From a virus: a DNA stretch of 23,210 nt. Position numbers and translations under genes: made by a program. The notes beneath the pieces were generated by a model. That model was not told the DNA's origin, searched no databases, and was given only the letters and a program-made list of their open reading frames with translations. The DNA is taken from positions 1 through 23,210 of IMG/VR virus record IMGVR_UViG_3300041411_000001; one strand, written 5' to 3'. Below, in pieces: positions 2,685 through 18,064 of this stretch (its first letter is position 1; the number at the start of each line of letters is the position of its first letter).

Positions 2685-4136
2685 ATGACTGAACTAATTG
2701 AAAAAGCAGAAACTCCTTTGCCTCGTTTGCGTCTTGGTGAAATGGGAACAACCGGTCTGAAAATGGCTGGTGGTCGCATTAACGAAGAAGCTCGCAGAGA
2801 ACTACGGTTCCCTGAAGCTTGCAAGACTTTCCGAACGATGGCTTCGGATGTAACAATCGCTGCTGCTCTCTCTCTGTTCAAGATGATGATCAGCCGTGTT
2901 GAATGGACAACTGACCTTGGTCCTGCTCCAGATGCTGCGATGAAAGCTCGCGGTCAATTCCTAGAGGAATGTCTGGATGATATGGAACACAGTTGGCGTA
3001 GCTTCATTCAAGAGACTACATCTGCACTAACTTACGGCTTCTCGGTTCACGAGAAAGTCTACCGTCGTCGTGACGGTTCTACAGGTTCTAAATACAGTGA
3101 TGGTAAGATTGGCATCAGGAAGCTCCCTATTCGCTCACAGGACACGATCTACAAGTGGCTATACAGTGAAGACGGTCGTAACCTTCTTGGCGTCCAGCAG
3201 AGCCTCACAGCGATTCAAGGGGCAGAACGCTACCTGAATCTGAACGCTATCAATAGCACTGGCATGATTGACATTCCCCGTAAGAAGTTCTTGCTTGTCC
3301 GTGTGGACGCAGAACGTGATAACCCGGAAGGTAACTCGCCACTACGTGCTGCGTATTACGCTTGGAAGTATCGCTGCCTGATCGAAGAACAAGAGTCGAT
3401 TGGTGTTAGTCGTGACATGGTTGGTATGCCAACTCTGTACTTGCCTCCACGTTATATGTCTGCTGATGCTTCTCCTGCTGAAGCAAAGATTTATCAATAC
3501 TACCAGAACGTTATCCGAAACATTCAGATGAACGAACAAGCTGGTCTGATCCTGCCACAACAATTCGACCCTGAAAGCCGACAGCCATTGTTCAAGTTTG
3601 AACTGACTTCGACACAGGGTGCCAAGATGTATGACACAGATGCAATCATTAAGCGTTGGGACAATAAAATCCTCACTGCTTTGTTTGCTGATGTTCTGAA
3701 ACTTGGACAAGATAGTGTTGGTAGCTTCTCGCTTGCTGGTGCAAAAACAAATATTATGGCAATGGCGATTGAAGCACGTCTTCAAGAAATCGCTGATGTT
3801 GTCAACAAAGACTTGATCCCACAACTATTCGCATTGAACGGTGAAGCATCTGACGCCAAGCTTCCTAAGCTGGTTTACGGTGACTTGGATGAAGTTGATC
3901 TTGATGAATTCTCCAAAGCAATCCAACGTATGGGTTCTGTTGGGGCTCTTGAACTTGACCGTCCTATGGCGAACAAGATTCGTGCTGCTCTTAAAGTTCC
4001 TGTTAAACCTGATGATGCTCCGATTGATAAAAAGGAAATCATGGGTGGTGAAAGTCAAGCCGGTCTAGCTGGTGTTGGCAATGGAGCTTCGAAGAAAGTA
4101 TCAGGTAAAGATAATGCTGCCGCAAATAACGCATAA
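2685..4136 (+). CDS. portal protein (DUF935-like)
   Basis: A 483-residue protein forming the dodecameric ring at the head vertex through which DNA enters and to which neck and terminase bind. The order terminase-portal-protease and the sequence agree: an N-terminal region with DVTIAAALSLFKMMISRVEW (about 55-75), then the helix-rich wing containing LTYGFSVHEKVYRR, a clip/stem region with AGLILPQQFD, and the SFSLAGAKTNIMAMAIEARLQEIADVVNKDL motif near 345-375, which is characteristic of DUF935/Mu gp29-like portals. The last about 45 residues (from KKEIMGGESQ) are Gly/Ala/Lys-rich and probably disordered. The start at 2685 follows AAGGCGAGG, which overlaps the terminase stop. The length fits the family. 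Confidence 0.92.
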   Translation: MTELIEKAETPLPRLRLGEMGTTGLKMAGGRINEEARRELRFPEACKTFRTMASDVTIAAALSLFKMMISRVEWTTDLGPAPDAAMKARGQFLEECLDDMEHSWRSFIQETTSALTYGFSVHEKVYRRRDGSTGSKYSDGKIGIRKLPIRSQDTIYKWLYSEDGRNLLGVQQSLTAIQGAERYLNLNAINSTGMIDIPRKKFLLVRVDAERDNPEGNSPLRAAYYAWKYRCLIEEQESIGVSRDMVGMPTLYLPPRYMSADASPAEAKIYQYYQNVIRNIQMNEQAGLILPQQFDPESRQPLFKFELTSTQGAKMYDTDAIIKRWDNKILTALFADVLKLGQDSVGSFSLAGAKTNIMAMAIEARLQEIADVVNKDLIPQLFALNGEASDAKLPKLVYGDLDEVDLDEFSKAIQRMGSVGALELDRPMANKIRAALKVPVKPDDAPIDKKEIMGGESQAGLAGVGNGASKKVSGKDNAAANNA

Positions 4137-4145
4137 GGAGCCACA

Positions 4146-4598
4146 ATGAAATTCGTTGATGCACTTGCTGAACTAATCGAAAAACACTTTGGTGGCTCTA
4201 CTCAAGAAGTTAAGGCACCAGTTGAAGTGACAAAAGCTCTCGATGAAGAGGACCGAAAGGCTCTCTTCGTTGTACTTGCTCCTGATGTAGTTGACCTTCA
4301 CGGGGATACATATACAGCAGTTGAAGTTGAGAAAGCTTGTGACAACTACAACGCACATTGCAACGTAGCTTACCTGTTCCACCAAGTAGAGACTGAAGAA
4401 GCGAAAGCTATCCAGTCCTTCATTGCCCCATCTGATTTCACACTGGACAACGGTGTTGCAATCACTAAAGGCACATGGCTACAGTGGTGGAAGTTCCCTG
4501 AAACGGAAGTTGGTGAAGCTCTATGGCAAGGTGTTAAATCTGGCGACATCAACGGTGTCTCTATTGGTGCTATGGCTAATGTCGAGGAACTAGAATGA
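4146..4598 (+). CDS. prohead protease, XkdF-like serine peptidase (S78_2 type)
   Basis: A 150-residue protease expected to cleave scaffold inside the prohead. It shows the XkdF hallmarks in order: VVLAPDVVDLHGDTYTAVEVEKAC (42-65), the His-containing LFHQ (catalytic candidate His79), SFIAPSDF (91-98), ITKGTW (106-111) and GDINGVSIGA (133-142, candidate nucleophile Ser139). AAGGAG (4135-4140) precedes the ATG. The reading frame stops right after the core fold. The conserved continuation seen in longer XkdF proteins (a strand like HVALV followed by a PAN-type turn) is encoded at the start of the next gene, which overlaps by ATGA (4595-4598). The protease/scaffold unit therefore looks split into two translationally coupled genes. 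Confidence 0.88.
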   Translation: MKFVDALAELIEKHFGGSTQEVKAPVEVTKALDEEDRKALFVVLAPDVVDLHGDTYTAVEVEKACDNYNAHCNVAYLFHQVETEEAKAIQSFIAPSDFTLDNGVAITKGTWLQWWKFPETEVGEALWQGVKSGDINGVSIGAMANVEELE

Positions 4599-5509
4599 CA
4601 ATCGCAAAACGTCGCTTGACTGATATCAAGTTTGAACATGACGGGGCACACGTTGCCCTTGTCGGTAAACATCAAGGTGGTCCTGCAAATGGAATCACTA
4701 CACTGATTACCAAAGCAACTAATCAAATCACACAAGAGCAGATTGAGAAAGCCTCAACTGTTACTGTTGAAATGCAATTCCCTGAGTTCCTTCGTAAGTT
4801 CTTTGGACTGTACTGGGACGATGCAGAAGTTCTATCTTCTGTTATGGGTTATGGACGCACAGAGTATCCTGATACTAATGAGAAAGATTGGATCGATCAA
4901 AAGATCGAATCTATCAGTATCATGAAAGCTGTGTACAAAGCCCAAGACGTGGAGAAGGCTCTCGCAGCTCTAACTCCAGAACAACATCTAGCCCTTATGG
5001 CTGATCAAGAAATGCTGGAGAAAGCTTTCGCTGCTCTTCCAGAACAACCTATCAAACAAGAGGAAACTCAAATGGAAACAATCCTGAAGGCTGCTCACGA
5101 AGAAGCCGTTCTCGCTGCTGTTGCAGTTGAAAAGGCCGCTGCTGTAGCCGCTGTCGCTGAAGTCCAAAAGGCTCTAGTTGCTCAAGAAGAAGTGCTGAAA
5201 GCTGTTCAAGCTGAAGTTGCTACATTCAAAGCTGCTGAAGCTGCTCGTGTACAAGAAGTTCGCAAGTCTGCATTGGCTGCTGTATTGCCTGAAGCTCAAG
5301 TTGAAAGTGTTCTGAAAGCACTTGAAGCTGTTGCTGAAGAAGCATTCGCTGCTGTCGTTGCTGGATACGCTGTACAAAAAGCTGCCGTTGATAACTCTGA
5401 AATGATGAGTGAAACAGGCGTTGCTGGAACTGGTACTGCCGACGCTCCAGAAGTCGACCGTACTGCTGAAATCCTGAAAGCTAAGTACGCCCCTAAAGCT
5501 GCTAAGTAA
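4595..5509 (+). CDS. head scaffold protein with XkdF-like N-terminal extension
   Basis: A 304-residue protein in two parts. Residues 1-about 130 continue the prohead-protease family (RRLTDIKFEHDGAHVALV, then GGPANG, then MQFPEFLRKFFGLYWDDAEVL). Residues about 160-270 are an almost uninterrupted Ala/Glu/Lys/Val coiled coil (EEAVLAAVAVEKAAA..., KALVAQEEVLKAVQAEV) typical of scaffold proteins, and the end is short and basic (KYAPKAAK), as expected for a capsid-binding tail. It overlaps the protease gene by four bases, which suggests translational coupling. It has no good independent Shine-Dalgarno sequence. A second in-frame start at 5072 may yield the coiled-coil part alone. Expected role: internal scaffold, later removed by the protease. 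The position between protease and decoration/capsid genes supports this. Confidence 0.82.
   Translation: MTIAKRRLTDIKFEHDGAHVALVGKHQGGPANGITTLITKATNQITQEQIEKASTVTVEMQFPEFLRKFFGLYWDDAEVLSSVMGYGRTEYPDTNEKDWIDQKIESISIMKAVYKAQDVEKALAALTPEQHLALMADQEMLEKAFAALPEQPIKQEETQMETILKAAHEEAVLAAVAVEKAAAVAAVAEVQKALVAQEEVLKAVQAEVATFKAAEAARVQEVRKSALAAVLPEAQVESVLKALEAVAEEAFAAVVAGYAVQKAAVDNSEMMSETGVAGTGTADAPEVDRTAEILKAKYAPKAAK
5072..5509 (+). CDS. possible internally initiated scaffold isoform (in-frame, 145 aa)
   Basis: Inside the 4595-5509 gene, ATG 5072 is in frame, follows AAGAGGAAACTCAA (Shine-Dalgarno-like AGAGGA), and begins exactly where the coiled coil starts (METILKAAHEEAVLAAV). The product would be a free scaffold lacking the protease-related domain, in the way lambda Nu3 is made inside gene C. 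The start is inferred from signal strength and domain boundary only; a processing site at the same place is an alternative. Confidence 0.4.
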   Translation: METILKAAHEEAVLAAVAVEKAAAVAAVAEVQKALVAQEEVLKAVQAEVATFKAAEAARVQEVRKSALAAVLPEAQVESVLKALEAVAEEAFAAVVAGYAVQKAAVDNSEMMSETGVAGTGTADAPEVDRTAEILKAKYAPKAAK

Positions 5510-7971: not shown

Positions 7972-8342
7972 TGCTTCATCCGCCACTCCTATCAACAGGT
8001 CAAGTGGTCCTCGACGTTACACGTCGTGAGGCTCCTACTATCGACAGAGGCCGTCCGGTTCTCGGTGCTGAGTCTACCGTACAAGTTGTATGCAACGTAC
8101 AACCAGTGTTGAAATCTTCCGACACTATTATGCTTCCTGAAGCAGACCGATCTAAAGCTTGCCTGAAAGTTTATACTAAGGGCGGTGAAATGAGAGCTTT
8201 GAAAGAAGCTGGTCCGGGTTGGGCAGCAGATCGATTCGTATGGGAAGGTGATCTATACGAAGTCATGAAGGTTATTAATTATAGAATGGGCGTTTTGAAC
8301 CACTACAAAGCAATCTGCATGCGTGTGGAGTTGACAAGATGA
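7971..8342 (+). CDS. head closure / head-tail joining protein
   Basis: A 123-residue protein starting at ATG 7971, six bases after GGAGG (7960-7964). A conserved arrangement is visible: a polar N-terminus, a strand with VQVVCNVQPV, LPEADRSKACLKVYTKG (the lpEg.R.k..i.vyt pattern), then DRFVWEGDLYEVMKVINYRMGVLNHYKAICMRVE (G..YeV..v..w....HYka...R). This is the pattern of small head-closure proteins such as SPP1 gp16-type stoppers, which plug the connector after packaging. It lies third in the four-gene neck cluster and overlaps the next gene by ATGA (8339-8342). The fold assignment is by pattern, not search. Confidence 0.72.
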   Translation: MLHPPLLSTGQVVLDVTRREAPTIDRGRPVLGAESTVQVVCNVQPVLKSSDTIMLPEADRSKACLKVYTKGGEMRALKEAGPGWAADRFVWEGDLYEVMKVINYRMGVLNHYKAICMRVELTR

Positions 8343-8908
8343 ACATCTATAAAGACCTTGAAGACAGCCTGTACAACGTAATTGAAGAGTTGTTCCCTGC
8401 AACCAGAATCATCTTCGCATACAACAACCTACCGGAGCCTCAAACTCCATACTTGGTTATTGATATTAAGCGTCTTGATCAATTGGGTAGCGAATACAAC
8501 TCTACGTTCGTTGACGACTTCGCCACAGCCCCTACAACCACTACGCAGATCGATATGATGGCGAAGGTAAGGTTCGAGGTTGTTGGCTTAATGGACAACG
8601 ATACAGAGGCTGCTGAGCTTGCTCAGAACATCCAATTTGCTCTACGAACTGCCCGTGGGTATGAGAGTCAGGCAAGAAATAATCTGGCCCGTCATGGACA
8701 GATCACAAACCGCCGTATGCCTTACCGCAAGGACACGGACATGTACATGCTTTACCAAGTGGATGCAAACTTCGCATACACAGCAATCTCTCAAGATGAG
8801 CAAGACTACATTATCGCTACAGACTTCACTGGTGTCTATCATGATGCTGGACGTGAGCCTGATCATGTAATCATCAATCATATTGAAATCAATTATCCAA
8901 CTCCATAA
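8339..8908 (+). CDS. neck / tail terminator protein
   Basis: A 189-residue protein, last of the connector cluster and directly before the sheath gene, where contractile phages encode the tail terminator. The N-terminal helix-strand unit (YKDLEDSLYNVIEELFPATRIIFAYNNLPEPQTPYLVIDI) and the later MMAKVRFEVVGLMDNDTEAAELAQNIQFALRT resemble the alpha/beta fold of lambda gpU-type terminators. A strand ending YQVDANFAYTAIS lies before a 45-residue acidic C-terminus. Expected role: capping the finished tail and binding the head neck. The assignment rests on fold pattern and gene order; a minor neck protein is the alternative. The start overlaps the previous stop by four bases. Confidence 0.68.
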   Translation: MNIYKDLEDSLYNVIEELFPATRIIFAYNNLPEPQTPYLVIDIKRLDQLGSEYNSTFVDDFATAPTTTTQIDMMAKVRFEVVGLMDNDTEAAELAQNIQFALRTARGYESQARNNLARHGQITNRRMPYRKDTDMYMLYQVDANFAYTAISQDEQDYIIATDFTGVYHDAGREPDHVIINHIEINYPTP

Positions 8909-8919
8909 GAGGAACTGAA

Positions 8920-10212
8920 ATGACACGTCTAACCGACATCATCGAAATTCAGATCAGCCGTGAAACTTCTGCGGTTGCTCAAACAAATTTCAACGTACCA
9001 GCCTTTATCTCTGCTCACACCAACTTCATTGAACGCGCTCGCGTGTACAGTTCGTTGCTGGCAGTAGCAGATGACTTTGCAAGCACAGACTCTGCATACA
9101 TTGCAGCTTCTAAGTTCTTCGGTCAAGCAATCAAACCAGCTAACATCGTTATCGGTCGTCGTCAGATTCCCGGTGCAACTGTTAACGTTTTGACTGTAGT
9201 AGCAAGCACAGCTTACACCCTGACAGTGAGCGGCGTAACAGTCACTTATGTTTCTCAGGCTCTGGACACTGCAACCCTTATTGCTTCCGGCCTTAAAGCA
9301 GCCTACGAAGTAACCCCTGTTGATGGCGTAACTCTGGTAGACAACCTCGACGGTACTCTGACATTCTCTGTAGCTGGAGAAATCGATTGGTCCCTGAAAG
9401 TTTCTTCTAACTTGAGCAAGGCTAACGCCCCAGCGACTGAAACTTGGTCTACATCTGTAACCGAAGTTCAGAACGACAATGACACTTGGTATGCTCTGGC
9501 TATCGAATCCCACAACGAACTTGATGTTCTGGAAGTTGCTGGCGTGATCGAAGCTAAGAAGAAAATCTTCGGTACTTCTTCTGCAACAGCCGCAATCAAG
9601 ACAACTGGAACAACTGACATCTTCGCTCAATTGCAAGCCCTTGGATACCAACGTACCTTCGGTGTTTTCTCTAATGACGCTGATACACAGTTCCCAGAAT
9701 GTGCTTGGATCGGATTCCAGTTGCAAGAACAACCGGGCTCTAACACTTGGGCTTACAAAGCTCTGACTGGTGTTACTGTTTCCAAACTGTCTGACACTGA
9801 ATCCACAAACATCAAAGCCAAAGCTGGTAGCACCTACGAATCTGTAGGCGGGCAATCCGTAACTGTCGGTGGCAAGATGTTCGGTGGTGAGTGGATTGAC
9901 GTTATGGTCTTCGTTGACTGGCTGGAAGCACGCATGACTGAACGTCTGTGGTTCCGTATGGCTAACAGCAAGAAAATCCCTTACACCGCTGCTGGTGCCA
10001 CAATCATTGAATCTGAAATCCGGGCTCAACTGAATGACGGTATCCGTGTTGGTGGATTGGCAGATAACCCAACTCCAGTAGTTCGCGTTCCAGATGTTCT
10101 GTCTGTTGCTCCGAACCTGCGTGCCCAGCGTATCTTCGAAGGTATTGAGTTCGAAGCTCGCCTAGCTGGTGCCATCCACTTCGTTAAAATCCGTGGAACT
10201 GTAACCGTTTAA
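8920..10212 (+). CDS. tail sheath protein (DUF3383-like)
   Basis: A 430-residue contractile sheath subunit. The N-terminus (RLTDIIEIQISRETSAVAQTNFNVPAFIS) and FIERARVYSSLLAVADDFASTDSAYIAASKFFGQ...IVIGRR are classic DUF3383 features, as is the C-terminus with GIRVGGLADNP and FEARLAGAIHFVKIRGTV. Residues about 98-165 form an inserted Ig-like unit (AYTLTVSGVTVTYVSQ...ASGLKAAY...DGTLTFSV) on the outside of the sheath; a related unit occurs in the J-like protein at 18064-19518. The presence of this gene makes the phage a myovirus. AGAGGAAC precedes the ATG. A perfect hairpin straddles the stop codon. Sheath is expected at high copy, equal to tube protein. Confidence 0.93.
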   Translation: MTRLTDIIEIQISRETSAVAQTNFNVPAFISAHTNFIERARVYSSLLAVADDFASTDSAYIAASKFFGQAIKPANIVIGRRQIPGATVNVLTVVASTAYTLTVSGVTVTYVSQALDTATLIASGLKAAYEVTPVDGVTLVDNLDGTLTFSVAGEIDWSLKVSSNLSKANAPATETWSTSVTEVQNDNDTWYALAIESHNELDVLEVAGVIEAKKKIFGTSSATAAIKTTGTTDIFAQLQALGYQRTFGVFSNDADTQFPECAWIGFQLQEQPGSNTWAYKALTGVTVSKLSDTESTNIKAKAGSTYESVGGQSVTVGGKMFGGEWIDVMVFVDWLEARMTERLWFRMANSKKIPYTAAGATIIESEIRAQLNDGIRVGGLADNPTPVVRVPDVLSVAPNLRAQRIFEGIEFEARLAGAIHFVKIRGTVTV

Positions 10213-10244: not shown

Positions 10245-10769
10245 ATGGCTACTCAACGCGCTTCTACATATGCACCGAACCAAGTATGCGTGGTTATCAC
10301 ACAAGATACCAGCGGCATTGCTCACGTAATTTCGGGCTACTCTGAAGACAGCATCGTTTCTATCGAACGTTCTGCTGAAACTTTCACAATGTACACTGGT
10401 GCTGATAACACCATGACTCGTGTTTACAACGCTAACACATCTGCTACGATCACATTGAGTCTACAACAAACTTCTGCATCGAATGACATCCTGTCTCTGC
10501 TGTACCAAAACGATGCGGCAAGTTTGTCTTCTGACACAATGTTCTCCATCCAGATCAAAGACAACAGCGGTCGCTCGAACTTCTTCAGTGACAATGCTTA
10601 CGTCGGGATCGTCCCTAACTCTGCGTTCAGCAACAGCATGAACACACGTGATTGGGTAATCCATGCTGCTGATCTTCAAACTTACATCGGTGGTAACGCC
10701 AAGTTGGTCCCTGCTGATCAAGATACTATCCAGACTCTGGGTGGTTCTATCGATCCACGTTGGTTGTAA
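10245..10769 (+). CDS. major tail tube protein (DUF3277-like)
   Basis: A 174-residue tube subunit encoded directly after the sheath. It shows the DUF3277 pattern: STYAPNQVCVVI, ISGYSEDSIVSIER, FTMYTGADNTMTRVYN, ATITLSLQQTSASNDILSLLYQNDAA, FSIQIKDNSGRSNFFSDNAYVGIVP, NTRDWVIHAADLQTYIGGN. Family role: hexameric rings stack into the inner tube through which DNA leaves. It has the strong AAGGAG Shine-Dalgarno (10233-10238) and is the only one of the three paralogs followed by a terminator, which fits a high-copy product. The two genes downstream (10833-11336 and 11339-11863) share the same motif order and the terminal IGGN, so this is the first of three tandem homologs. Confidence 0.92.
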   Translation: MATQRASTYAPNQVCVVITQDTSGIAHVISGYSEDSIVSIERSAETFTMYTGADNTMTRVYNANTSATITLSLQQTSASNDILSLLYQNDAASLSSDTMFSIQIKDNSGRSNFFSDNAYVGIVPNSAFSNSMNTRDWVIHAADLQTYIGGNAKLVPADQDTIQTLGGSIDPRWL

Positions 10770-10781
10770 TACATCGCTATC

Positions 10782-10812
10782 AGGGGCTTCCATTCGTGGT
10801 GGCCCCTTTTTT
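10782..10812 (+). terminator. intrinsic terminator/attenuator after the tail tube gene
   Basis: GGGGC (10783-10787) pairs with GCCCC (10802-10806). An inner CCA/TGG stem (10790-10792 with 10797-10799) closes a TTCG loop (10793-10796) across a small internal loop, followed by TTTTTT (10807-10812). The next gene starts 20 bases later without a visible promoter, so termination is presumably partial. Confidence 0.82.
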
Positions 10813-10832
10813 CATTTCTACAGGAGGCAAAT

Positions 10833-11336
10833 ATGGCCGTAGCTCTATACTCGCCAAAAGACGTTTTCATCAGTCTTGCTGGCTTGCACACAATCTCTGG
10901 ATATGCCGATGGCACATTCGTTCGTATTACAAAGGACATGAAACCATTTTCCAAGGTTCGAGCAATGGATGGAGAAATGGCTCGTATGTACAACGAAGAT
11001 GAAGGCTTCAGAGTTGAAATCACTGTCGCTCAATCGTCTGGAAGCAACAACATTCTTTCTGCCATCTACAACGTGGATGCTGCAACACAGATGGGTAAAT
11101 TCCCACTGCTTATTAAAGATTCCAAAGGACAGACCAGCTTCTTTGCTGCGACTGCTTGGATCGAACAAATTCCTGAAGTCACCTTCTCCAATCAACTTGA
11201 AACCCGCACATGGACATTCGGTTGCTCTGGCGCTGCAATTACAATTGGTGGGAACGGTGATACAAACTTGCTCGAAGATGCACTCCTAGTAGGGTCTGCT
11301 GGCTTGGGCGTTCTTAAACAGTTCGGAGTATTTTAA
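10833..11336 (+). CDS. second tail-tube-family protein (DUF3277-like paralog)
   Basis: A 167-residue homolog of the tube protein just upstream. Same-order motifs: YSPKDVFISLAG, ISGYADGTFVRIT, RAMDGEMARMYNEDEGFRVEITVAQSSGSNNILSAIYNVDAAT, FPLLIKDSKGQTSFFAATAWIEQIP, LETRTWTFGCSG, ITIGGNG. This copy keeps features of ordinary DUF3277 tube proteins (the DGEMARMYNED region) even better than the first gene does. It has a strong AGGAGG six bases before ATG 10833, but lies behind the attenuator. Possible roles: a minor tube ring at the baseplate end (initiator, like T4 gp48/gp54 in concept) or at the head end. Which of the three genes forms the bulk of the tube is inferred from position and from the terminator. 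Confidence 0.85.
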   Translation: MAVALYSPKDVFISLAGLHTISGYADGTFVRITKDMKPFSKVRAMDGEMARMYNEDEGFRVEITVAQSSGSNNILSAIYNVDAATQMGKFPLLIKDSKGQTSFFAATAWIEQIPEVTFSNQLETRTWTFGCSGAAITIGGNGDTNLLEDALLVGSAGLGVLKQFGVF

Positions 11337-11338
11337 TT

Positions 11339-11863
11339 ATGGCTGGAGATATCTTGACTTACGCCCCTTCGACTGTTACACTGGTACTCTGTGGCTATGT
11401 TCTTACAGGCATTGTTTCTGTAAGTCTGCAATGGAAGTCCAGTCCGTTCACAGTTAGACGTGGCATTCGTGGACAACATACCCGCACAGGTAGCAAGGAC
11501 AGACAGTCCACCGTTACAATCGAAGTATTGCAAACCTCTATCACCAACGACATCCTCTCTGAGATTCTTGAACAGGACACACGGAACTACTCTGGCCGTC
11601 TTGAATTCTCTGTGAAAGATGCATCCGGTACAACTCAGTGGGCATCGACCCAATGTTTCCTTCGTGCGTGGCCTGACGCTTCCCTTAGTGGGGAGATTCA
11701 AACTCGTAAGTGGGACGTAGAGATTCTATCGTTCATCAGTGGCAAAATCGGTGGTAACGCCCGTCAAGGCTTCGACCTGCTGGACTCTTTCAATGGAGCA
11801 GCAGAATATGTATCCAGTGGAATTGACAGTGCTGTGGATTCCGCATCCAATCTATTCAGTTAA
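11339..11863 (+). CDS. third tail-tube-family protein (divergent DUF3277-like paralog)
   Basis: A 174-residue divergent homolog: TYAPSTVTLVLCGYVLTGIVSVSLQW, FTVRRGIRGQHTRT, STVTIEVLQTSITNDILSEILEQDTRN, LEFSVKDASGTTQWASTQCFLRAWPDASLSGEIQTRKWDVEIL, KIGGNARQG align with the two preceding genes. It replaces the acidic DGE loop with a basic one (RRGIRGQHTRTGSKDRQS) and adds a 25-residue amphipathic C-terminal tail (DLLDSFNGAAEYVSSGIDSA). Its start is only 2 bases after the previous stop and its Shine-Dalgarno (GGAG 11325-11328, ten bases away) is weaker than those of its neighbours, which fits a minor component. It is probably a ring connecting the tube to another part such as baseplate hub or terminator; the precise place is unknown. 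Confidence 0.75.
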   Translation: MAGDILTYAPSTVTLVLCGYVLTGIVSVSLQWKSSPFTVRRGIRGQHTRTGSKDRQSTVTIEVLQTSITNDILSEILEQDTRNYSGRLEFSVKDASGTTQWASTQCFLRAWPDASLSGEIQTRKWDVEILSFISGKIGGNARQGFDLLDSFNGAAEYVSSGIDSAVDSASNLFS

Positions 11864-11876
11864 TTAGGAGAATCAA

Positions 11877-12257
11877 ATGGCTATTAAGCAAAAAACAATC
11901 GAAGTGAACGGTAGCGAATACTTGATCACTCAACTGGGTGCCCTGAAAGGTACTCGTGTATTGAAAGAAATCACCAAGCTCGTTGGCCCTGCTTTTGCAC
12001 AGATGCAGAAGAAAGATGGCGAAGGGCAGTCTGGAACTATCGGTGACGCTCTAGGCATTCTGTTCGAGAATTTGGACAATGCAAACATCGAAGGCATGAT
12101 CATGGAACTGGCTAACACTGTTGCCAAGTCCAATGGCTCGGCAATCAACTTCGACATGGAGTTTGCTGGTGAATACGACAAGCTATTCCTCGTACTGAAG
12201 GAGGTAGCCGAGTTCAACTTCGGTTCGGTTTTTACTCTGTTCGGTTCTCGGGAGTAA
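11877..12257 (+). CDS. tail assembly chaperone (short product)
   Basis: A 126-residue protein between the tube genes and the tape measure gene, the standard place for the lambda G-like chaperone. The N-terminus (QKTIEVNGSEYLITQLGALKGTRVLKEITKLVGPAFA) is the strand-plus-helix start common in phage tail assembly chaperones, and the end (LFLVLKEVAEFNFGSVFTLFG) is the usual conserved finish. It coats the tape measure during assembly and is absent from the virion. TTAGGAG sets the start. Near its 3' end the frame runs through GTT TTT (12228-12233) followed by a hairpin, where a -1 shift would join it to the next frame (12272-12529), which lacks its own ribosome binding site. Confidence 0.82.
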   Translation: MAIKQKTIEVNGSEYLITQLGALKGTRVLKEITKLVGPAFAQMQKKDGEGQSGTIGDALGILFENLDNANIEGMIMELANTVAKSNGSAINFDMEFAGEYDKLFLVLKEVAEFNFGSVFTLFGSRE

Positions 12258-12270
12258 CCGCTACTCCTGA
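12228..12270 (+). other. probable -1 programmed frameshift signal (lambda G/GT-type)
   Basis: In the chaperone frame the codons GTT TTT (12228-12233) let the A-site tRNA-Phe slip back one base onto TTT (12230-12232). A 9-bp hairpin with one G-U follows: 12248-12256 with 12262-12270, loop ACCGC, carrying the zero-frame stop TAA (12255-12257). An internal AAGGAGG (12198-12204), with no start codon after it, lies 23 bases upstream. The spacer of about 14 bases to the hairpin is longer than usual, and the P-site pairing after slippage is imperfect, so efficiency is uncertain. Confidence 0.6.
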
Positions 12271-12271
12271 C

Positions 12272-12529
12272 ATGCAAGTTGGCATGGACGGGACAACCCT
12301 TGAACCAGTGCCTATCCATCCGAGATTACAACGTGTTCAAGATCAATTCAGCCAAGACTGGGAAGTGTACAATGTCCTTACCAGTCCGCTAGGTCTTGCT
12401 ACTTATGTCGAGTTGGATACGGTATGTAACACCGAAGACTTGTACAAGATGTTTGAGATAGTTCAAGTCCATAAAGAAATGGAGGCTGTCGCTCACATCC
12501 AAGCCAAACTCCAAGAGGGTAATAAATAA
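12272..12529 (+). CDS. tail assembly chaperone, C-terminal part, probably made by -1 frameshift
   Basis: An 85-codon stretch from ATG 12272 to 12529, in the -1 frame relative to the chaperone and open upstream through the slip site. ATG 12272 has no Shine-Dalgarno sequence at workable distance (GGAG is 17 bases away and buried in a hairpin), unlike nearly all neighbours. The likely product is therefore a fusion of chaperone residues 1-119 with 98 more, about 217 residues, like lambda gpGT. The extra part (PRLQRVQDQFSQDWEVYNVLTSPLG...TEDLYKMFEIVQVHKEMEAVAHIQAK) is helical and polar, as expected for a domain recruiting tube subunits to the tape measure. The alternative is independent low-level initiation. 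The stop overlaps the tape measure ATG. Confidence 0.65.
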   Translation: MQVGMDGTTLEPVPIHPRLQRVQDQFSQDWEVYNVLTSPLGLATYVELDTVCNTEDLYKMFEIVQVHKEMEAVAHIQAKLQEGNK

Positions 12530-14871
12530 TGATTACGGAAGAAATCGCACGGCTTACTGGTAAGCTGGTCTTCCAAGTGGACAACCGCCCTCTGATGGCA
12601 TTCGAGAAGCGACTAAACAATGTCATCGACTCGCTTCGTACACTTGAAACACTAGCAAACAAGAAGTTCAATATCAAAGTCCAGCTCGACTCTCGTACTC
12701 TACGTGAGCAACTGGCGAAGGCATCTAATGCTAAGGTGACACTGAAGGATGTAAACGTCTCTCAGGAAGCTCTGGCTGTAGCTGCAAAGCGTATTACTGA
12801 CAAGCTCAACAGTACGCCAATCACTCTGAACAAAATCCGTGTAGATATCGCTTCTTTGATCGAAACCAAGAAGGTAACTCGCACACTACTTGGTCAGATG
12901 CAGATTAACATCCCTTTGAAGTTTGGCACTGCTGCAATGGAAGCAGAGCTGCGTAAAGAGGTAAAAGCTATTGGTGATCGTAACCCAGTCAAACTGGCTG
13001 TACACATCAATGCAAATGCACTAGAACAAAAGATTCGTAAGGCCATCAAACAAGCCACTAAAGGTTTGCAGGCCATTAAGGTCAAGATCGCAAATCCTGA
13101 AGTCCAGTTGAAGGTGGATAAACAACACCTCATTGCACAAATTCAGGAAGCATTAAATTCTCGCCAGTTTAGAATCAGAGTTGGTCCGGGTCCACTTCCA
13201 AGGGACGAACGCGGAGAGCCTTCTCACAGTAGACGTGGTGCATTCGGTGGCGGTCTGATGGGAGCAGGTATGGGCTTCGCCAGAGGCGCTCTACCGGGTC
13301 TAGGAGCTGCGTTCGCTATCGGGGCAGTCAACCAGATCAACCAACAACTTGTAGCGACTAACACAGCCTTGGAGGCCGTCTCTGGGAGTGCAGAAGGGTA
13401 CGCAAGTAACCTGAAGTTCCTTGAACAGCTTACTGAGGAACAAGGTCGTAACATGCGTGATGTTGCACCACAGTTCAACAGCATTCTGGCATCGGCTCAA
13501 GGCGCTATCGGAAACCAAGGCACTCAAGACTTGTTCCGTGGTGTCATGAAGTACGGTACTGTAATGGGACTTGACCAAGAAGCCATGAAAGGCTCTCTTC
13601 GTGCCATCAGTCAGATGTTCTCCAAAGATAAGATTCAGGCTGAAGAAGCACAAGGTCAGTTGGCTGAAAGACTTCCAGCGGCTATGCAACTTCTTGCTAA
13701 AGCAAACGGGACTGATGTAAAAGGTCTTCGTGAACAAATGCAGAAAGGCTCTCTCGATCCTAAGAAAATCTTGCCTCAGATGGCTAAGATCATGGAAGAG
13801 TTGGCTGAGAAGAATGGAGCTTACGCTAAGGCGTTGGAATCCACACGTGTTGCCCAAGGACGAATGAACAGACAGTTTGAACGTTCTGTTCGTATTTTTG
13901 CTGAAGGTGGTTTTGATAAAGGCATTCGTGACTTCTTCACAACTATGGCAGATGGCATGCGTGATTCTGAACCACTGATTAAAGCTCTCGGTGGTGCATT
14001 TGATTTCTTGATGCGTCCAATCAATGCTCTGATTAAGATCGTGAGCGGGATTGGTAAGAATTGGGGAAATATCGCTGCTGTATTCGGTATGACTGGTAAA
14101 CAACTTGCAATTCTTGGAACTATCGCCGGTGTCGCATTGTTGCCATTTGGTGGTTTGGCTATTGCCATTGCTGCTGTTGCCCTTGCAATTCAAGATGTGA
14201 TGGTTTATGCAAATGGTGGGGATTCTCTATTTGGACGTTTCCTTGAAAGTAGCCCAGAAGCAAGAGCTGCACTGGAAGGTTTCTCGAAAGAAGCTAGACA
14301 GTTTGGTGAGTATCTACAACTTGCTGTTACGAACGCCCTAGAGCTTGCTGGAGGTCTGAAAGGACTGTCCCTACCTGAGATGTTCATTAACACAATGCGT
14401 GAGCTACAAACCATCCTGAAGCTGTTCAACGATACAGTTGATCGCTTTGTGGCTGCTGGTGAATACGCACAGATGATGAATCCTGAAGGTGGTGTTGGTG
14501 CCAACTTGGCTAACATGCGAGCTATGGCCAATGGACCTGAATGGGCACGTCAACAGATGTCTGACAAGATTGCTGGTGACTTTGCTAAACAAGGTGTTGT
14601 CTCTTCTGATATTCCGGGTGGTGTTGGTGTAAGCCTGACTGCTGATCAGATTGGCGAAGCTGTTGCTCGTGCTATTGGAGTACAAGCTGCCGAAGGTCAA
14701 CAACGTAAAGACTACTACGAAGCAAACATCAATGTTAATGTCGAGGGTGGGGTTATCTCTGCTGGAGACTTGATGTCTGCACTCAATGAACCGATGAAGC
14801 AAGTTGCTATCAAAGCCTTTGGTGAAGTAATTAACAACGAACGCTCCACACAATCGCAGGTGAGACAATGA
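12529..14871 (+). CDS. tail tape measure protein
   Basis: A 780-residue protein setting tail length. Residues 1-about 215 hold degenerate strand-helix repeats (near 50-72, 156-185 and 192-212, each a V.L-type strand plus helix). A Gly/Ala-rich hydrophobic segment follows (about 240-270, GGGLMGAGMGFARGALPGLG). Then comes the tape-measure domain (about 275-430: LEAVSGSAEGYASNLKFLEQLTEEQ, MGLDQEAMKGSLRAISQMFSKDKIQAEEAQGQL). A second long hydrophobic segment is at 523-558 (LAILGTIAGVALLPFGG). The C-terminus is mixed. At about 0.15 nm per residue the tail would be near 115-120 nm (inference). The order chaperone, tape measure, baseplate is standard. The start overlaps the previous stop; GAGGG lies nine bases ahead. 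The hydrophobic segments may help genome entry through the inner membrane. Confidence 0.93.
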   Translation: MITEEIARLTGKLVFQVDNRPLMAFEKRLNNVIDSLRTLETLANKKFNIKVQLDSRTLREQLAKASNAKVTLKDVNVSQEALAVAAKRITDKLNSTPITLNKIRVDIASLIETKKVTRTLLGQMQINIPLKFGTAAMEAELRKEVKAIGDRNPVKLAVHINANALEQKIRKAIKQATKGLQAIKVKIANPEVQLKVDKQHLIAQIQEALNSRQFRIRVGPGPLPRDERGEPSHSRRGAFGGGLMGAGMGFARGALPGLGAAFAIGAVNQINQQLVATNTALEAVSGSAEGYASNLKFLEQLTEEQGRNMRDVAPQFNSILASAQGAIGNQGTQDLFRGVMKYGTVMGLDQEAMKGSLRAISQMFSKDKIQAEEAQGQLAERLPAAMQLLAKANGTDVKGLREQMQKGSLDPKKILPQMAKIMEELAEKNGAYAKALESTRVAQGRMNRQFERSVRIFAEGGFDKGIRDFFTTMADGMRDSEPLIKALGGAFDFLMRPINALIKIVSGIGKNWGNIAAVFGMTGKQLAILGTIAGVALLPFGGLAIAIAAVALAIQDVMVYANGGDSLFGRFLESSPEARAALEGFSKEARQFGEYLQLAVTNALELAGGLKGLSLPEMFINTMRELQTILKLFNDTVDRFVAAGEYAQMMNPEGGVGANLANMRAMANGPEWARQQMSDKIAGDFAKQGVVSSDIPGGVGVSLTADQIGEAVARAIGVQAAEGQQRKDYYEANINVNVEGGVISAGDLMSALNEPMKQVAIKAFGEVINNERSTQSQVRQ

Positions 14872-15662
14872 CAATCGCTATCCGCCGTGAAAACGGCGAC
14901 ATCCTCTGGTTTGACGCTGTAGAGGGTTTCGATGAAACCCTTAGCAGCACAGTAACCAAACATCCAGTTGCTACAGGTAGTTTCATTGCTGACCACATCA
15001 CCAAGGATAATCCACGATTCACTCTTCGTGGAATCCTATCTGATGCGGACTTCAACTTCAACAGACCACAACTGGGGAATGAATATGAAGGCTGGCAATC
15101 TGTTAACACCAGAAAGCAGTATGTAAATAACACACCAGTAGACAGTCCAGTATCCATCAACAGTAACAAGAATACCTTCAAGAGCTTTCTTCCTGAATCC
15201 ATTTCTCAATTCACGTCTACAAGCATTCCTGAAGTTGTTGTAACTGAACAACCGAAAGTAAAATCCGCATCTGCTGTGCGTATGGACTTGGTTCGTATCC
15301 GTGACATGAAGGAAGAGTTCACTCTTGTAGACTTCGAAGATAACTTGATTCGCCGTAGCTGGTCTAACTGTGTCTTCACAAACCTGTCTTTCAGTGAGAC
15401 TCCAGAAGGTGGCGATTCGCAAGCTCTCTTCCCAGTAATGGAAATTGAACAAGTTGTGTACACCAGTGTTGAAAACGTTAAGATTAAACTGAAGCCAATC
15501 AACAAAGGTCGTCAACAAGGTGAAGCGTCTAAGCGTGAAACTGAAACAGGGGATGACGCTAAGACAGAACCAACTGGATATTCTGGTGAAACTTCTGAAG
15601 CCTTGAAGGCTAAAGGGCTAGGTGATAAGACTAAACCACAATTTGGAGACGCACCTGCATGA
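14868..15662 (+). CDS. baseplate protein, Dit-like N-terminal domain
   Basis: A 264-residue protein immediately after the tape measure (ATGA overlap 14868-14871). The N-terminus (WFDAVEGFDETLSSTVTKHPVATGSFIADHITKDNPRFTLRGILSDADF) matches the Dit-like tail protein pattern, in which a strand pair is followed by H.v..Gs.i.DH and l.l.G..Sda. Such proteins form the ring joining tube to baseplate in contractile and siphophage tails. A second strand-rich region (VRIRDMKEEFTLVDFEDNLIRRSWSNCVFTNLSFSETPEGGDSQALFPVMEIEQVVY, about 140-200) completes the fold. The last 50 residues are charged, Gly/Lys/Glu-rich and probably disordered. In comparable phages this position carries a T4 gp53-like LysM protein; I see no clear LysM motif. 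Confidence 0.72.
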   Translation: MTIAIRRENGDILWFDAVEGFDETLSSTVTKHPVATGSFIADHITKDNPRFTLRGILSDADFNFNRPQLGNEYEGWQSVNTRKQYVNNTPVDSPVSINSNKNTFKSFLPESISQFTSTSIPEVVVTEQPKVKSASAVRMDLVRIRDMKEEFTLVDFEDNLIRRSWSNCVFTNLSFSETPEGGDSQALFPVMEIEQVVYTSVENVKIKLKPINKGRQQGEASKRETETGDDAKTEPTGYSGETSEALKAKGLGDKTKPQFGDAPA

Positions 15663-16000
15663 CAACTAACTTTGTTGAAATGCCGCTATACCCTGAACTG
15701 ACTTACAGATATAGTATTTCATTGCAGGGTATCTCGTGGCAGTTTAAGTTCTACTGGGTAGAACGAGCTAAACAGTGGCAGATGGACATCCGCCAAGAAG
15801 ATCAGACTGCTATCATCTTAGGCTATGCCTTGGTGCCACAGTATCCGATCCTTGAGGATGTTCCGCTTGAAGTGTATGGACTGACAGGCAGATTTGTACT
15901 GATGCCTGTGAACGTTGCTGTTGCAACAGCCATTACACAAGAGTCTTCGATCATGCCCGAATTCTTTAAACTTTTCTACATGTACGAAACGGAGGTATAA
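15659..16000 (+). CDS. baseplate plug protein (Pam3 gp18 / DUF6983-like)
   Basis: A 113-residue protein. The pattern YRYSISLQGISWQFKFYWVERAKQWQMDIRQEDQTAIILGYALVPQYPIL...GRFVLMPVNV is that of the small baseplate-plug family named from cyanophage Pam3 gp18: a first strand with LdG..y.f.f.W..r...W.mdi, a turn, then G..lvp.yp.l, and a final P.G.f.l.p. These proteins close the central baseplate around the hub. The length is as usual for the family. The gene overlaps the previous one by ATGA and ends one base before the hub start, so it is tightly coupled in the baseplate operon. Confidence 0.75.
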   Translation: MTTNFVEMPLYPELTYRYSISLQGISWQFKFYWVERAKQWQMDIRQEDQTAIILGYALVPQYPILEDVPLEVYGLTGRFVLMPVNVAVATAITQESSIMPEFFKLFYMYETEV

Positions 16001-16001
16001 C

Positions 16002-16922
16002 ATGATTCAAGAAGAGCGGGTTTATGAACTAACCGTTGGTGACTACCGTACAGGAAATGGCCTACGAATCACCGCCGGTATTCCAGATGAAAACGGTGTA
16101 ATGAACGTTGGCCTTCAAGTCACTTTCGATATTTCCAAAATGGCTGATAACAAAAAGACAAAAGGTAACTCTGCCTCGATTGAGGTTTATAACCTGTCGC
16201 GTAGTCAAGCCGCTCTACTTGAAGGTGAATACCTTGAGTGTACTTTCTCTCTTGGATATAAAGAGCAAGGGCCACGCGTTGTCGTAACTGGAAACGTAAC
16301 CGATATTTCTACTCGTAAGAGCGGAGAAGATCGTATCACAGTTATCCGAATGGGAGAGGGTTACACAGACCTTAACCATAAGAAGCTGAAACAAATGGTG
16401 AGTCCGGGTAAGACTGTTAAAGACGTTATTAACGATATTCAACAGCAAATGCCCGGTGTTGCTCGTGGCTCCATTGTCGGTACAAACCTTAACAACCCAA
16501 TCGTTCATGGATGGCGCCTAACAGGTACTCCACGTGAAATGTTGAAGAAGGTGTGTGATGCCTACGACTTGGAATACAACGTCTCTGGAGGCGTCCTGAA
16601 CGTCTCTGACGTTAATGGATTGGCCACTAAGGACGTATTGAACGCTCCAGTCATTAGTCCAACTACTGGACTGATTGATGAACCATTCTACACATCAGAA
16701 GATGGACGTAAACATCCAAAAGATAAACGTCGTCGTCGTGGTGTCCAATTTACTTGTCTGCTGAACACAGAGCTGGTTCCCGGTCGTATCGTTAAACTCG
16801 AAGACACGGTGATCAACGGCTTCTACCGCATTAACGCCACACGGTTCAACGGAGACTTCCGTGGTAACCCTTGGTATGCAGAGTGCTTGTGTTCGGAGAT
16901 TGCAGCGGAGGAACTGAAATGA
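16002..16922 (+). CDS. baseplate hub protein
   Basis: A 306-residue protein. The start at ATG 16002 is set by GGAGG (15991-15995), and the longer upstream frame lies inside the plug gene. The N-terminus (LRITAGIPDENGVMNVGLQVTFDISKM...NSASIEVYNLSRSQAALLEGEYLECTFSLGYKE) and the later PGKTVKDVINDIQQQMPG...WRLTGTPREMLKKVCDAYDLEYNVSGGVLNVSD are recognisable parts of trimeric hub proteins of the Mu gp44/P2 gpD/T4 gp27 class, with G....vL.k.c...g..y.v..g.l.v. The C-terminus (VQFTCLLNTELVPGRIVKLE...GFYRINATRFNGDFRG) is the usual end domain. It anchors the spike encoded next; the two genes overlap by ATGA. Confidence 0.8.
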   Translation: MIQEERVYELTVGDYRTGNGLRITAGIPDENGVMNVGLQVTFDISKMADNKKTKGNSASIEVYNLSRSQAALLEGEYLECTFSLGYKEQGPRVVVTGNVTDISTRKSGEDRITVIRMGEGYTDLNHKKLKQMVSPGKTVKDVINDIQQQMPGVARGSIVGTNLNNPIVHGWRLTGTPREMLKKVCDAYDLEYNVSGGVLNVSDVNGLATKDVLNAPVISPTTGLIDEPFYTSEDGRKHPKDKRRRRGVQFTCLLNTELVPGRIVKLEDTVINGFYRINATRFNGDFRGNPWYAECLCSEIAAEELK

Positions 16923-17689: not shown

Positions 17690-18064
17690 ATGGATTTGCT
17701 TCTCAATGGAGACACTGGCGATATGGTGTTTGTGAACGGTGGCTGCCCAGTCACCCAACACACTGCTGATGTTGTTGCACAGCGTCTTCGCATCACCCTG
17801 TACACATTCCTCGGAGAATGGTTCCTTGACACTACAGTCGGGGTTCCATACTTCCAACAAATCTTCGGTAAGCTGAGAACCAAGGCTTCTGTTGATTTGA
17901 TCTTCCAACAGATCATCACTGATGACCCAGACGTTATTGAAATCTTGACGTTTGATTCCACGCTTGATCGTGGAGCCCGTGGCTACAGTATGACATTCCA
18001 AGTGCGTGTAAGTGATAACACTGCATCGCTTCCAATTACAATCGACCTAGGAGACGTTATTTAA
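17690..18064 (+). CDS. baseplate wedge protein W (gp25-like)
   Basis: A 124-residue protein of the GPW/gp25 family. The core signature is VAQRLRITLYTFLGEWFLDTTVGVPYFQQIFGK (29-61), the qri.irl.tf.GEwfld...GvpY.q.i pattern, followed by a beta-rich end (DPDVIEILTFDSTLDRGARGYSMTFQVRVSDN). In T4 and P2-like tails this small protein sits at the sheath-wedge boundary and starts sheath assembly, with the J- and I-like wedge proteins encoded next. AAGGAG (17679-17684) overlaps the spike stop. The stop codon overlaps the start of the J-like gene (TAATG). Length and gene order match the family. Confidence 0.9.
   Translation: MDLLLNGDTGDMVFVNGGCPVTQHTADVVAQRLRITLYTFLGEWFLDTTVGVPYFQQIFGKLRTKASVDLIFQQIITDDPDVIEILTFDSTLDRGARGYSMTFQVRVSDNTASLPITIDLGDVI

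Follow-up and report, generated by a model that had tools for sequence, protein, structure and literature searches.

The locus described here encodes three tail-tube-family proteins in tandem, raising the question of which copy builds the tail tube and what the other two contribute to the virion. It belongs to a 23.2 kb virus record that encodes head and tail proteins of a phage with a contractile tail (the whole analysed stretch of 23,210 nucleotides, hereafter "the window"), where the three tube genes are located between the gene of a DUF3383-family tail sheath protein (8920-10212) and the gene of a TAC_15 tail assembly chaperone (11877-12257); we refer to genes 1, 2 and 3, all on the plus strand, and to their products as TTP1 (10245-10769, 174 residues), TTP2 (10833-11336) and TTP3 (11339-11863). 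We conclude that, very probably, TTP1 is the major tube protein and TTP2 and TTP3 supply one hexameric ring each, joining the tube to the baseplate; the basis of this conclusion is homology, orthology, the abundance ratios in a relative, the six ortholog chains of each minor copy that accompany baseplate proteins, and a conserved terminator.

Three tube paralogs and their surroundings

The original prediction of three tandem tail-tube paralogs between sheath and chaperone, with exact coordinates, is confirmed by the comparison of the three proteins: all of them match the same profile, PHROG_280 (E = 1.4e-42, 3.1e-42 and 2.4e-31 for genes 1, 2 and 3), their mutual identity is 28-33%, BLAST between the pairs gives E = 3e-27, 3e-18 and 6e-16, and their pairwise alignment scores lie 22-36 standard deviations above those of shuffles, while profile-profile comparison gives E = 2e-27 for gene 1 against gene 3 and E = 8e-26 for gene 1 against gene 2. 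The common motif order that had been read from the three proteins is likewise seen in their alignment. The search against PF11681 (KPP10_Orf10, formerly DUF3277), proposed as a check, divides the copies: gene 1 passes the cut-off of 25 bits with 41.5 bits, while genes 2 and 3 score below it (20.3 and 16.2 bits); among the orthologs, a match to PF11681 at E <= 0.1 is found in 21 of 23 for gene 2, but in only 3 of 23 for gene 3.

For genes 1 and 3, AlphaFold2 models of medium confidence (pLDDT 72 and 75, respectively) predict a tail-tube β-sandwich fold with one helix, and the tail tubes of Bas63, Sf14, phiTE and Pam3 lead their Foldseek matches (best E = 2e-07 for gene 1 and 3e-09 for gene 3; entry 9zd7 is not among the matches listed, from a library that extends to April 2026). 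The predicted models cover genes 1 and 3; gene 2 has a solved ortholog, gp78, in the Protein Data Bank (PDB). The amphipathic tail noted for gene 3 does not hold up as a conserved helix: it is modelled with pLDDT below 50, and some orthologs have only a short one or lack it.

The neighbouring genes, all on the plus strand, encode further parts of the tail. The sheath protein matches PF11863 (E = 4e-29), PHROG_205, a tail sheath family (E = 2.5e-118), and gp76 of PDB chain 9zdk_S (E = 1.4e-184); further downstream, we find a Dit-like baseplate ring protein (14868-15662; PF21821, E = 8.8e-22; ortholog of gp83, chain 9zd7_A, E = 2.9e-48), the baseplate hub (15915-16922; ortholog of gp85, chain 9zd7_J, E = 3.8e-101) and the sheath initiator (17690-18064; ortholog of gp87, chain 9zd7_K, E = 8e-42). 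The chaperone frame (PF21822, E = 4e-24) stops soon after the slippery site GGTTTTT at 12227, where the -1 frame is open until a stop at 12529; judging by these letters, the region 12227-12529 probably encodes a -1 frameshift fusion of TAC-N and TAC-C, as has been reported for phage Adele (PMC12846349), and the whole feature would thus extend over 11877-12529. At the start of the window, a truncated first gene (3-797) carries the motif GLHWNPTGARIVGEAL, which by eye resembles an SGNH-hydrolase-type tail protein, such as the one in the phiPsa374 virion list.

By the similarity of its tube and sheath proteins and by its gene order, taken over 23.2 kb only, the window appears to be a fragment of a Vandenendeviridae-like Pseudomonas myophage. 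Its nearest relatives are the Pseudomonas phages UAVern, ventosus, NoPa and Bitten, followed at a greater distance by Otagovirus, Flaumdravirus, Pakpunavirus and Nankokuvirus; identity to the named Pseudomonas relatives is ~56-76% for TTP1, 48-70% for TTP2 and 32-65% for TTP3, and the mean column identity among orthologs falls in the same order (79%, 70% and 59%). The triplet occurs in the same order in 15/15 Pseudomonas-phage records examined and in Acinetobacter phage AM24, whose record labels the proteins as tail tube protein I, II and III. In IMG/VR, we have found 32 loci, and all of the 28 that span the whole region hold the triplet in one order, including one (L023) with a 100% match to the first tube protein of the window; three others run into the end of their contig, and the last is a distant locus (L054) with a single match.

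In the maximum-likelihood tree, there is one clade per gene position (support 96/81, 99/99 and 98/95), and a single branch separates each positional group from the rest in 100% of the 200 bootstrap trees, with the tree positions of the Acinetobacter copies being unsure because of their long branches. Since there is one clade per position and the triplet is present throughout the relatives, we consider the duplication to be old and each copy to have been retained. By sequence, TTP2 is as close to the single-tube phages as TTP1 is, a point that speaks against the roles proposed here.

Some local variations of the locus are worth recording. A close relative (L024) has ~510 extra bases between the TTP2 and TTP3 genes (4593-5104), which may be an inserted homing endonuclease; the annotations of KIL1, PAK_P4 and Y1-MI place such endonucleases next to the tube genes. 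In the PAK_P3 record (L013:3566-4572), TTP2 and TTP3 are annotated with late starts (3698 and 4168), while the full-length genes start at 3566 and 4069, matching those of KPP10. The Acinetobacter phages Phab24 (L017:3986-5660) and vB_AbaM_P1 (L019:3454-5019) also have three genes here, which are very divergent; their gap after gene 1 measures only 8-10 bases, leaving no room for a hairpin.

Abundance and placement of the copies in relatives

The copies differ strongly in their abundance in purified virions of phiPsa374, for which gel-based proteomics has reported TOP3 signals of 1.89e9 for the sheath protein gp067, 7.57e8 for gp068, 4.56e6 for gp069 and 1.56e7 for gp070 (PMC9796965, Table 1). 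With gp068, gp069 and gp070 mapped to TTP1, TTP2 and TTP3 by gene order and by their masses (18.7, 18.0 and 19.1 kDa), the TTP1 signal exceeds that of TTP2 by ~166 times and that of TTP3 by ~49 times. The same study ranks gp068 as the third most abundant protein of the virion, names it the tube protein and describes a tail of 30 discs with C6 symmetry (PMC9796965). TOP3 is a rough measure: when scaled to 180 copies of TTP1, it gives ~1 for TTP2 and ~4 for TTP3, not 6; within this accuracy, the ratios fit those that single rings would give. In the published virion mass spectrometry of PaP1, where the proteins are mapped in the same manner by gene order and mass, gp057 (TTP1) reaches 6.96e7 and gp059 (TTP3) 6.6e6, while gp058 (TTP2) is not listed.

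The placement of the minor copies is indicated by PDB entries 9zd7 and 9zd8, which hold the orthologs of gene 2 (gp78, chain 9zd7_H, E = 9.5e-68) and gene 3 (gp79, chain 9zd7_G, E = 3.6e-43) together with the orthologs of the Dit-like protein, the hub and the sheath initiator. Over the two entries, gp78, gp79, gp83 and gp87 count 12 chains each and gp85 counts 6, i.e. six of each of the former and three of gp85 per entry, if they are shared evenly; these chain counts suggest that gp78 and gp79 form two hexameric rings in the baseplate. The entries are known here through their sequences, chain counts and molecule names, so that ring positions are deduced from the chains that are present together. 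The sequence of gp78 is 100% identical to that of many Pakpunavirus genomes. A chain orthologous to TTP1 was not found in the PDB search, where the best match of gene 1 is the paralog gp78; the deposited chains therefore give no direct view of the tube, which weighs against the proposed roles.

In the arrangement that we propose, TTP1 would polymerise into stacked hexameric discs within the sheath, while the rings of TTP2 and TTP3 would connect the last disc of TTP1 with the Dit-like ring and the trimeric hub of the baseplate, acting as tube initiator or adaptor rings. The Dit-like protein would thus be the neighbour of the minor rings, and the likely order is TTP1 - TTP2 - TTP3 - Dit; the initiator role and the transfer of these assignments to the phage of the window are inferred. 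The idea that duplication has supplied two specialised rings is supported by the mass spectrometry of relatives, by the PDB chain counts and by the conserved terminator described below, but both rings appear to belong to the baseplate end, and not one to each end of the tail.

The terminator-type hairpin after gene 1

Genes 1 and 2 are separated by a gap in which GGGGCTTCCATTCGTGGTGGCCCC precedes a run of six T (10783-10812, plus strand). The attenuator that had been proposed after the first gene is thus present as a hairpin, but its type is that of an intrinsic terminator. The gap folds at -17.4 kcal/mol with a single-sequence z of only -2.0, and it is the comparative evidence, rather than the folding z of a single sequence, that carries the case for a terminator. 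Because a stock terminator scan missed the hairpin, we have compared the gaps with shuffled sequences and with control gaps in a test made for this purpose, in which a terminator is defined as a stem of at least 7 pairs followed by a T-run: such a hairpin is found in 46/46 homologous gaps (those of the window, the IMG/VR loci, the named phages, AM24 and Felix O1), with 28 distinct hairpins among them, while 2.2 are expected from dinucleotide shuffles. No such hairpin occurs in control stretches of 70 bases located upstream of gene 1 (32 loci), downstream of gene 2 (29 loci) or downstream of gene 3 (28 loci). In the window and in L023, the script chose an alternative pairing of the same hairpin.

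The annotations of relatives agree with this result: a terminator is recorded at this place in PAK_P3, on the basis of RNA-Seq, as well as in PAK_P4 and KIL1. Felix O1 has its sole tube gene in the position of gene 1, with the hairpin after that gene. RNA-Seq-based antisense RNAs are also annotated in this part of two genomes, over the sheath gene in PAK_P3 (L013:1818-2509) and over the tube genes in PAK_P4 (L014:3204-3604 and 3954-4574).

The terminator splits the sheath gene and gene 1, located upstream, from genes 2 and 3, located downstream, and this division fits the abundance data. In our model, the terminator would set the output of the locus, at least partly: the sheath protein and TTP1, of which ~180 copies each would be needed, are encoded before it, while TTP2 and TTP3, needed in six copies each, would be made by read-through. 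By extension, the terminator could be a conserved dosage switch, in which partial read-through sets a ratio of ~30:1 of tube discs to the two adaptor rings and thereby allows duplicated copies of a self-assembling tube protein to serve as single rings without poisoning the growth of the tube; we regard this as plausible but somewhat doubtful, with read-through as the control step being the conjectural part. As regards translation, a strong ribosome site had been ascribed to gene 1 and a weak one to gene 3. The best Shine-Dalgarno pairing is in fact that of gene 2 (-10.3 kcal/mol), followed by gene 1 (-8.5 kcal/mol); gene 3 is indeed the weakest of the three (-6.1 kcal/mol), but its weak site is not a trait of the family.

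Other readings and known systems

The three paralogs might instead mix within discs or alternate along the tail, as the original prediction allowed with its heteromeric tube. Their common family, the one predicted fold of genes 1 and 3, and the adjacency of three genes transcribed in the same direction are all compatible with such a tube, but signal ratios of 166:1 and 49:1 in phiPsa374 contradict it, gp78 and gp79 are present in six chains each in the baseplate entries, and the terminator parts gene 1 from the other two; a mixed tube is hardly credible, and we have ruled it out on the published virion abundances. The same abundances, from phiPsa374 and PaP1, rule out TTP2 as the major tube protein with TTP1 as another part, an extremely improbable assignment even though the tblastn matches of TTP2 include the single tubes of Felix O1-like phages, for which TTP1 stays below threshold, and even though one ring of a major TTP2 would also be visible in a baseplate map; in Felix O1, moreover, the single tube gene has the position and the terminator of TTP1.

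It is also very unlikely that one minor paralog forms the initiator ring at the baseplate while the other closes the tube at its neck end. One ring per tail end is the usual expectation and was the premise of the original prediction, but gp78 and gp79 are both found alongside Dit, hub and sheath initiator in one and the same pair of entries, and the locus encodes a terminator protein of its own (8339-8908), a relative of the tail completion protein in PDB entry 9zbs. Single rings of TTP2 and TTP3, both at the baseplate end, are thus the reading that we retain.

The layout is a known arrangement rather than the little-described one that had been suggested. For phage Adele, a paper of December 2025 describes the triplicated tube locus TTP1-TTP2-TTP3 of Vandenendeviridae (PMC12846349), and gp068 of phiPsa374 was called the tube protein in 2022; close relatives are therefore largely described already, although the available text on Adele does not give a role per copy. 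According to that text, the Adele locus has the same three genes at the same place, in three clades of low mutual identity, with a variable C-terminal helix and a variable loop after the first strand; unlike the present work, it assigns no role to each copy and leaves the terminator unmentioned (PMC12846349). The direct orthologs of genes 2 and 3, gp78 and gp79 of 9zd7/9zd8, belong to another genus, Pakpunavirus.

Felix O1 (Andersonviridae, with the related solved tubes of Sf14 and Bas63) resembles the window in its tube family, its sheath-tube order and the terminator-type hairpin after the tube gene, but it has one tube-family gene at the locus, with no TTP2 or TTP3. A comparable single ring is known from the PB1-like phage E217, where the tube-fold protein gp36, or "tail tube-B", forms one hexameric ring between the tube and the baseplate hub complex (PMC10329688); gp36 is reported to be structurally similar to the tube protein gp32 (RMSD 3.6 Å) and is encoded among the baseplate genes (PMC10329688), whereas in the window the two rings would come from tandem genes whose products still fall under one sequence profile.

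What is added here to these systems is a role per copy, drawn from published proteomics, from the chain counts of deposited structures and from the conserved terminator. This bears on the annotation of the three proteins, whose usual labels are just "virion structural protein", "tail tube protein" or "baseplate protein", and duplicated tube proteins appear to have been retained as adaptor rings of the baseplate in a family to which therapy phages of Pseudomonas aeruginosa belong.
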